The notes under the pieces: generated by a model
Told to the model about the DNA's origin: nothing
The model's database searches: none
The model's input: only the letters and a program-made list of their open reading frames with translations
DNA from: Caulobacter segnis ATCC 21756
GTDB lineage: Bacteria; Pseudomonadota; Alphaproteobacteria; Caulobacterales; Caulobacteraceae
Assembly (NCBI RefSeq): GCF_000092285.1
Contig: NC_014100.1
Span: 3,038,001-3,102,000 of the forward strand
DNA: 64,000 nt
Direction: 5' to 3'
Made by a program: the position numbers and the translations under genes
Shown here: positions 47,820 through 49,585 of the stretch, piece after piece
Layout: each line of letters opens with the position of its first letter
Numbering within the stretch: position 1 is the stretch's first letter

Positions 47820-48015
47820 CTGCGGCCTCTTCGGCCCTCGACTCTGGACGCGCAGTTATAGATGGCCGAGCGCCCGCTCCTATACCTACCGCATGCGACA
47901 ATCAGACACCGTGCAACTTCGCGGTTTGTGAAGAATTCTTCTCATAGGCGAAGATTCGTCATATGGTTTAGTCAGGTCTCCGGCAGAGGGGCCCCAGGGA
48001 AGGATTTCACGCGGA
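47820..48015 (+). promoter_or_regulatory. AT-rich intergenic region with palindrome
   Basis: A low-GC segment containing the perfect palindrome GAAGAATTCTTC (47930-47941), followed by AAGATTCGTCATATGGTTTAG. It probably carries a promoter for the small + strand unit at 48016-48416; I cannot pick the -10 with confidence. Confidence 0.35.
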
Positions 48016-48165
48016 ATGGCCACGCAAATTCATCTGGCGCCCGGTGGCGCCCCGGTCCCGACTCCGAGCATCCGGCGGATCAGCTTCGATCGCCCTCTGG
48101 CGGTCGGCGCCGCCATGGCGATGTGGGTCCTGATCCTGATCGGTCTCCGTCTGCTGACGCTCTGA
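48016..48165 (+). CDS. 49-residue single-TM small protein
   Basis: MATQIHLAPGGAPVPTPSIR followed by RISFDRPLAVG and a transmembrane helix AAMAMWVLILIGLRLLTL. Composition and single C-terminal helix suit a real small membrane protein. The ribosome-binding site (CGCGGA) is weak. It lies 95 nt upstream of the 22-codon ORF and before a shared terminator. Confidence 0.5.
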   Translation: MATQIHLAPGGAPVPTPSIRRISFDRPLAVGAAMAMWVLILIGLRLLTL

Positions 48166-48244
48166 CCGCGACCTCGCGTCGCGCACGCGCCCTCTTCCCA
48201 TCGCGGCAAGAAGGCCCATATCCTCCCTGTGTTGTTCAACTACT

Positions 48245-48261
48245 GAAAGGAGGTGATCCAG
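48245..48261 (+). promoter_or_regulatory. Extended Shine-Dalgarno mirroring the 16S rRNA 3' tail
   Basis: GAAAGGAGGTGATCCAG is complementary to the 16S rRNA 3' end (CTGGATCACCTCCTTTC) over about 17 nt. The GGAGG core sits 7 nt before GTG 48261. Ordinary genes in this window pair over 4-7 nt. Confidence 0.8.
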
Positions 48262-48329
48262 TGTCTCATTGTCTCCAACCGCGGTCGCAAGTCGTGACCT
48301 GGAGCCTGAAGAGCGAGGTCTCCGCCTGA
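48261..48329 (+). CDS. 22-residue ORF with extended Shine-Dalgarno
   Basis: GTG start; the peptide reads (M)SHCLQPRSQVVTWSLKSEV followed by SA, 22 residues. The site before it is the strongest ribosome-binding site in the window. A terminator lies 57 nt downstream, and no + strand gene follows for 4.7 kb, so it is not a classic leader peptide. It could be a small protein, a toxin-like peptide, or a decoy ribosome-binding RNA. I do not recognise the family. Confidence 0.6.
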   Translation: MSHCLQPRSQVVTWSLKSEVSA

Positions 48330-48386
48330 AGCGTTGAGCGCCGAAGGTTTCATGTCACGCGCTGCGCAAGCGGCTACGACGATGGA

Positions 48387-48416
48387 AGGGCCGTCCCGAT
48401 CGGGGCGGCCCTTTTT
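48387..48416 (+). terminator. Intrinsic terminator of the small + strand unit
   Basis: An 11-bp stem AGGGCCGTCCC/GGGGCGGCCCT (one G-T pair) with loop GATC and a T-run on the + strand (48412-48416). On the minus strand no T-run follows, so it belongs to the + strand unit, not to ivd. Confidence 0.88.
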
Positions 48417-48427
48417 CATGGCCTGTA

Positions 48428-49585
48428 TCAGGCGCCGATCAGCTCGCGACCGATCAGGAAGCGGCGGATTTCATTGGTGCCGGCGCCGATATCGTAGAGC
48501 TTGGCGTCGCGCAGCAGCCGCTCGACCGGCCATTCCTTGGTGTAGCCGGCGCCGCCCAGGGCCTGAATCGCTTCCAGCGACACCTTCACGGCGTTCTCGC
48601 TGGCCATCAGGATCGCGCCGGCCGCGTCGAAACGCGTGGTCTTTCCAGCGTCGCAAGCCCGCGCCACGGCGTAGACATAGGCCCGAGCCGAGCTCAGGGC
48701 CACATACATGTCGGCGACCTTGCCCTGCATCAGCTGGAAGCCGCCGATCGGTTGGCCGAACTGCTTGCGGTCGCGCACATACGGCAGGACGATGTCGAGG
48801 CAGGCCTGCATGATGCCCAGCGGCCCCGCCGCCAGCACCGCGCGCTCGTAGTCGAGGCCGCTCATCAGCACCCCGACGCCGCCGCCGACCGGGCCCATGA
48901 CGTTGTCTTCCGGGATCTCGCAGTCCTCGAACACCAGCTCGGCGGTGTCCGAGCCGCGCATGCCCATCTTGTCCAGCTTCTTGGAGACGCTGAAGCCCTT
49001 CATCCCCTTCTCGACGAGGAAGGCGGTGATGCCGCGGGTCCCCTCCCCGGTCTTGGCGTAGACCACCAGGGTGTCGGCGTGAGGGGCGTTGGTGATCCAG
49101 AACTTCGTGCCGTTCAGGACATAACGGTCGCCGCGCTGCTCGGCGCGCAGCTTCATCGACACGACGTCGGAGCCCGCGCCGGCCTCGCTCATCGCAAGCG
49201 AGCCGACGTGCTCGCCGCTGATCAGCTTGGGCAGATAGCGGCGCTTCTGCTCGGGGGTGCCCCAGCGACGGATCTGGTTGACGCAGAGGTTCGAGTGCGC
49301 GCCGTACGACAGGCCCACCGAGGCCGAAGCGCGGGAGACCTCCTCCATCGCCACCACGTGCTCGAGATAGCCCAGGCCCAGGCCGCCAAACTCCTCCTCG
49401 ACCGTGATGCCGTGCAGGCCGAGGTCACCCATCGGGACCCACAGCGACCGCGGGAAGGTGTTGGTTTCGTCGATCTCGGCGGCCAGCGGCGCGATGCGGT
49501 CGGCGGCGAAGCGGGCGGTCGTCTCGCGGATCGCGTCGGCGGTCTCGCCCAGCGCGAAGTCCATCGTGGGTGCGAAATTCGTCAT
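48428..49585 (-). CDS. ivd: Isovaleryl-CoA dehydrogenase
   Basis: 385 aa, acyl-CoA dehydrogenase family. [40 protein letters not shown] and [20 protein letters not shown] form the substrate and FAD sites; the catalytic Glu is in [20 protein letters not shown], the isovaleryl-type position. [16 protein letters not shown] closes it. ATG 49585 has GGGAGGA upstream. It opens the leucine route continued by mccB, the hydratase and mccA. Confidence 0.93.

Follow-up and report, generated by a model that had tools for sequence, protein, structure and literature searches.

Why would a bacterium keep a free-standing transcription unit whose ribosome-binding site matches nearly the whole tail of its 16S rRNA, yet offers the ribosome only 22 codons to translate? 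The question is raised by a locus on the + strand of Caulobacter segnis ATCC 21756, at 48237-48416 of the window, i.e., the whole 64,000-nucleotide stretch of DNA that was analysed (contig NC_014100.1, positions 3,038,001 to 3,102,000).

Anatomy of the locus

The leader carries a 17-nt extended Shine-Dalgarno sequence (48245-48261, +) that is exactly complementary to both 16S copies and overlaps the start codon by one base, the last G of GAAAGGAGGTGATCCAG being the G of GTG (48261-48263). The ORF that follows (48261-48329, +; VSHCLQPRSQVVTWSLKSEVSA) has 22 codons and ends at a TGA (48327-48329). After another 56 nt comes the stem of an intrinsic terminator (48386-48416, +; about 13 bp plus a U tract), which is seen in the sequence and the fold and is absent from the output of our pattern scan. 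The original prediction, made from the letters alone, had described a 17-nt anti-16S site, a GTG-started 22-codon ORF and a strong + strand terminator, and all of these are present. The element RNA folds better than its shuffles (z-score -3.5), and the pattern scan gave no sigma-70 consensus promoter within 47900-48700.

The upstream neighbour, on the + strand, encodes a cNMP-binding/patatin protein, and the recognisable genes downstream are all on the - strand (acyl-CoA dehydrogenase, a lysozyme-domain protein and MgtE; also a tRNA-Leu). Just 5' of the element is a 49-codon + strand ORF (48016-48165) with a hydrophobic, membrane-like C-terminal end and no Pfam match.

Family and distribution

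The prediction had recognised no described family, and in this it was mistaken: the element (48237-48411, +) is a member of RF01867, "Caulobacter sRNA CC2171" (cmscan, model positions 1-159, E 6.6e-25, 121.3 bits against a gathering cut-off of 75). In the Rfam scan, only RF01867 and one tRNA reached their gathering score in the window. The founding paper of the family is reportedly Landt 2008. In the open-licence literature, which covers few subscription papers and not the founding one, we found no function for RF01867 and no paper naming CC2171 and Caulobacter together. According to PMC4117421, two earlier ncRNAs are translated.

The prediction had proposed a search of Caulobacterales for the peptide and the site. 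Of 149 genomes from the family of C. segnis, 120 have an RF01867 match at E<=1e-3 (above the cut-off in 76/149), and among 14 named control genomes the family matched Caulobacter vibrioides only. Further afield, 50 of the 385 class genomes have the site pattern GAAAGGAGGTGATCCAGTGTCTCAT with <=3 mismatches (backwards control, 0). A scan of named genomes gave at least 120 loci, with Sphingomonas, Novosphingobium, Erythrobacter, Bosea, Methylobacterium, Microvirga, Roseomonas and Azospirillum among the matches listed. The Rfam cut-off was reached by 6 of 20 class-wide loci tested. R1, a covariance model that we built from 63 elements, matched (E<=1e-4) 82/121 genomes of family f176 and 88/100 of family f24, labelled as putatively Rhizobiaceae-like and Rhodobacteraceae-like, respectively; there was one match per genome, and a few were short pieces.

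A phylum-wide draw of 398 genomes gave 110 with a match at E<=1e-3. All 90 matches of at least 25.3 bits, in 89 genomes, lie inside Alphaproteobacteria. Outside the class, 16 genomes match; apart from G568 (25.0 bits, 66 nt) and G540 (23.2 and 22.4 bits), they have 17-nt matches of 20.7 bits, as long and as high-scoring as the tail antisense to 16S. Within the class draw, 126/385 genomes match; setting aside 33 with 17-nt matches only and 10 more with only pieces shorter than 75 nt leaves 83, so many class members have no detectable copy.

The element is thus spread through Alphaproteobacteria, mostly in single copy and in changing neighbourhoods. Neighbouring genes are mostly common within groups and not between orders or groups: a crude ORF comparison, in which some loci had only ~1.5 kb of flank, gave 16 clusters of at least four related neighbours, mostly from a single group; one of them (L052, L090, L129, L164) spans several groups. 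The locus set comprised 180 loci (L001-L060, L064-L183), of which 171 were compared; L047 and L048 did not match the search expression, and in seven the downstream sequence was too short.

Some individual loci stand apart. One genome (G160, family f14) has two differing versions of the element (G160:C1:805112 and G160:C1:2922045). Two viral contigs (L184, L185) carry it, one at the contig end, possibly as host sequence next to a prophage. Element L123, identical over 145 nt to L202 from the window's class, comes from a planctomycete MAG recorded as Candidatus Kuenenia and probably lies on a misbinned contig. L014 has an ~85-nt insertion with repeated AGAGCC/GGCTCT between the stop codon and the 3' strand of helix P1 (below), which its near relatives lack.

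Sequence upstream of the element varies by group. Elements of f176 have CTTG, about 17 nt and then CCCCA upstream of the leader, which we take to resemble a heat-shock (RpoH) promoter. Two f24 members (L235 and L236, with a near match in L239) have the palindrome CCACAAAATCTGTGG after TTGACAT, perhaps an operator.

Pairing with the 16S tail

Both 16S copies in the genome have a tail with which all 17 nt of GAAAGGAGGTGATCCAG pair, confirming the match that had been predicted. The 17-mer CTGGATCACCTCCTTTC occurs at three places genome-wide, i.e., the 3' ends of the two 16S genes and the complement of the element site, and at both 16S loci a 16S start motif lies ~1.46 kb upstream of it. The site was also said to be far longer than any other in the window, and the second-longest match to the 16S-tail complement there is 11 nt. 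Even the 12-mer AAGGAGGTGATC has only four places in the genome: antisense to the two 16S tails, at the element site and at 4122228, where the 200 nt inspected hold no normally spaced start codon. The match begins ~8 nt from the 5' end of the RF01867 model, which is the sole source of the element's 5' end.

Because many loci had been found by the site pattern itself, we added 20 hand-picked lower-scoring RF01867 matches (29.6-78.6 bits, 19/20 below the cut-off). GGAGGTG precedes the start in all 20, and contiguous pairing to the 16S tail (GU allowed) extends over 16-18 pairs in 18 of them and 12 in the other two. At least 14 pairs form in 276 of 283 loci, most of which were picked by the site itself and some of which are repeated.

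A stronger argument for selection comes from wobble pairs, since neither choice of loci is free of the site. Across 105 loci selected by the Rfam or R1 models (both of which include the site), its 15-nt core has 30 substitutions, coming from related loci and so not 30 independent events; pairing is kept through wobble in 26 and broken in 4. A 1-nt deletion within the site occurs in five further Caulobacteraceae loci. By this comparison, leader substitutions mostly preserve pairing with the 16S tail, and the site is under selection.

In f24 elements, a CACCTCC-like anti-Shine-Dalgarno sequence occurs inside the element (above the 95th shuffle percentile in 68% of 37, compared with 0-14% elsewhere), and its predicted pairing can mask the ribosome-binding site. 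An internal sequence mimicking the entire 16S tail (CTGGATC..CCTCC) was rejected as a general feature, 6/122 'other' elements having one.

The mini-ORF and its peptide

Selection keeps the stop codon a stop, to judge from how it changes. Where the stop triplet differs between sequences, another stop takes its place in 82% of cases among 51 sphingomonad sequences, 90% among 30 Caulobacteraceae and 89% among 84 others; for control stop-like triplets, the figures in these three groups are 6, 3 and 0%. All these percentages are pair counts among sequences that share ancestry. Gaps in the ORF rows of the printed alignment are of 3 nt. The mini-ORF therefore looks translated.

Its start and stop usually lie 14-30 codons apart, with lengths that cluster by group (e.g., 18 codons in 45/49 sphingomonad and 35/36 f24 ORFs), and the peptides are dissimilar between orders. 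Synonymous and non-synonymous tests in five groups gave no clear signal of purifying selection on the peptide. Past codon 5, the observed and expected synonymous shares of codon changes were 0.235 and 0.232, 0.155 and 0.233, 0.150 and 0.249, and 0.200 and 0.264 in four groups; the fifth was slightly above expectation (0.241 and 0.202, sd 0.031; 1.3 sd). The test may be biased by pairing constraints on third positions. The residues that do recur, Ser-His near the start (SHC) and Thr-Trp (TW), fall on the strands of helices P1 and P0, respectively.

Five Azospirillum-type loci (L033, L036, L103, L133, L144) share the leader and an MSH start and have an ORF of 56-59 codons, with a secretion-signal-like N-terminus and a Ser/Ala/Pro-rich end; these could be real proteins. 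The f176 members L227-L232 and L247-L276 encode 23 aa (MSSDF...), acidic in several relatives. According to PMC10117765, SEP1 of S. meliloti has 23 aa and a pI of 4.18, is conserved in Rhizobiaceae and has the highest translation efficiency among unannotated sORFs. SEP1 might be the f176 member in this species, a lead suggested by length and acidity.

Helices P1 and P0

Helix P1 joins codons 3-5 (CAUUGUC, 48267-48273) to a segment immediately 5' of the terminator (GACGAUG, 48378-48384). It corresponds to the pairing of CAUuGuC with GaCaAUG in the Rfam consensus and is seen in covariation and in the fold. For its test, 164 elements with a terminator were reduced to 146 over score 28, 135 unique and finally 126 with an ATG shortly 5' of the terminator. 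The base 5' of that ATG pairs with ORF position +10 in 121/126 (shuffles: mean 70.7, maximum 85), through U-A, G-C, A-U, C-G and U-G pairs. Given a class-wide alignment, RNAalifold found P1 unaided, and one of its pairs had 19 double changes. The 20 lower-scoring matches include strand pairs such as CATTTGTC/GACAAATG, CAATGTC/GACATTG and CACCAAA/TTTGGTG; 13 of the 20 exceed the 95th shuffle percentile, and P1 is not evident in six (L313-L317, L324). On this covariation, P1 is under selection at the sequence level. Between the stop codon and its 3' strand, the alignment shows little conservation.

The case for a second helix, P0, is weaker. It would pair the spacer and start (UCCAG, 48257-48261; GAUCCAG in many relatives) with the ORF interior (CUGGA, 48299-48303), as covariation between the two suggests. 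For example, elements whose spacer and start read TCCAGTG have CTGG in the ORF in 76/78 cases and CTGGA in 58/78 (shuffles 5.1), and TCCGATG elements have CTGGA in 0/56 and TCGG in 56/56 (shuffles 20.6). CCGGTG elements have the complement CCGG(A/G)TC in 6/7, and one CCTGTG element has CACAGG. For CCGATG and CCAATG elements, the cognate ORF scores little better than non-cognate or shuffled ones (CCGATG, 12.59 vs 11.80), P0 is absent from single CTAGT and CGAAT elements, and one of its pairs is broken in 36/63 sequences. In the window, P0 has 5 bp and is not part of the minimum-energy fold, in which the 3' UTR is the pairing partner of the ORF and the leader has an internal 3-bp GGA/UCC hairpin.

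When P0 and P1 were tested jointly, three of five measures exceeded the shuffles: 87.4% of cells were paired (shuffled 81.8%, slid controls 17-50%), 51 cells were double-changed (16.7), and the covariation score was 0.243 (0.148); double changes and score were each reached by 0/500 shuffles. The other two were within the shuffled range, i.e., 7 pairs with a double change (5.5; 82/500) and 17 further pair types (16.3; 222/500), and many of the changes are common by descent. Because P0 crosses P1, forming both at once would produce a pseudoknot whose junction holds the start codon.

What the element may do

Ribosome engagement is the function suggested by five features together: a site on which almost all of the 16S tail can dock, a start codon at normal spacing, a selected stop, a drifting peptide and structure closing over the start. 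We rate the chances as even that this is a structured alphaproteobacterial sRNA which works by ribosome binding and translation, not by its peptide, as a sensor or buffer of free 30S. A 30S subunit would catch the tail-matching leader while it emerges from RNA polymerase, and translation of the mini-ORF would open P0 and P1, freeing the 3' strand beside the terminator. With free 30S scarce or initiation blocked, the RNA would close around its own start codon. The open and closed states would differ in stability or in trans activity, and the RNA could thereby sense or buffer free 30S. Among the roles offered in the original prediction, ribosome sequestration and the sensing of 30S subunits would both fit the comparative evidence; the long-range helices, class-wide spread and selected stop codon go beyond what it saw.

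A fuller version is more tentative, and we would sooner bet against it than for it: that this is a 'leader without a gene', ancient in Alphaproteobacteria, whose extended anti-16S site and peptide-indifferent ORF let ribosomes open a start-locking structure and so set a trans activity that senses or buffers free 30S. If true, what is catalogued as a Caulobacter sRNA is a ribosome-tied RNA widespread in a large bacterial class, usually in single copy, and translation itself, its product ignored, can serve as the input of a trans-acting RNA. The 16S-tail match, the stop codon and helices P0 and P1 supply an anatomy on which this can be tested.

The element might instead be an ordinary base-pairing sRNA with an active 3' region, in which the mini-ORF and the strong ribosome site merely stabilise the transcript, in the manner of STAB-SD leaders. 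This would suit its Rfam type ('sRNA'), its strong terminator, a 16S match so near the modelled 5' end and a free-standing unit whose neighbourhoods change. However, the region from the stop to the P1 strand is little conserved, and a leader that only stabilises would need no selected stop, so we regard this as unlikely.

The original prediction had offered a micro-protein as one reading, and a gene for one, with a ribosome-binding site of unusual strength, is rather less likely still. The selected stop, the 3-nt gaps, the slight synonymous excess of one group and the possible kinship with SEP1 (PMC10117765) would all agree with it. It is disfavoured because the amino acids are without clear purifying selection: the other four groups have no synonymous excess, the recurring SHC and TW residues lie on the P1 and P0 strands, and peptides of mostly 14-33 aa are unlike between orders.

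It is improbable that translation is incidental and that the RNA is a 30S decoy or a checker of 16S maturation, occupying the 16S tail and thereby lowering initiation or testing whether the 3' end is complete. The pairing of 16-18 nt in most loci does exceed a usual ribosome site, but a decoy has no need of a normally spaced start and a selected stop.

Finally, a leader-peptide attenuator (a short ORF 5' of a terminator) or a stray 16S fragment (a site antisense to the 16S tail) can practically be dismissed: no + strand gene was identified downstream in the window and the crude ORF comparison found no same-strand regulated gene in relatives, with mostly no neighbour common between orders, which bears out the predicted stand-alone unit and the prediction's view that the ORF is no leader peptide; and 16S homology stops at 17 nt, the remainder being a conserved RNA family.

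Comparison with known systems

In the open-licence literature, outside which most subscription papers lie, we found no comparable ribosome-engaged design with a function, and the element is best placed by its partial likeness to several known systems. STAB-SD leaders of B. subtilis have an extended Shine-Dalgarno sequence ahead of ordinary genes or UTRs. The element likewise has one, complementary to the 16S tail and probably near the 5' end (to judge from the Rfam model), that a 30S subunit could hold; unlike them, it stands alone, with a mini-ORF, a selected stop and closing helices.

The rpsO/S15 pseudoknot traps the 30S subunit before initiation and resembles the element in having structure around the start codon beside the ribosome site. 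Entrapment of this type was rejected here: the unit has no ribosomal protein gene and no conserved downstream gene, and its helices are different.

SgrS/SgrT and RNAIII/hld are dual-function sRNAs, i.e., small RNAs with a short ORF, which is translated there and looks translated here. Their peptide is functional, whereas that of the element lacks clear conservation, and with four of five groups at or below the synonymous expectation a dual-function sRNA with a functional peptide is disfavoured. Another RNA of this kind is rnTrpL/peTrpL, as described in PMC10117765.

The closest system is RF01867 itself, to which the element belongs. Rfam labels it a Caulobacter sRNA; what our analysis adds is its ORF, its match to 16S, helix P0 and a range that extends across the class.
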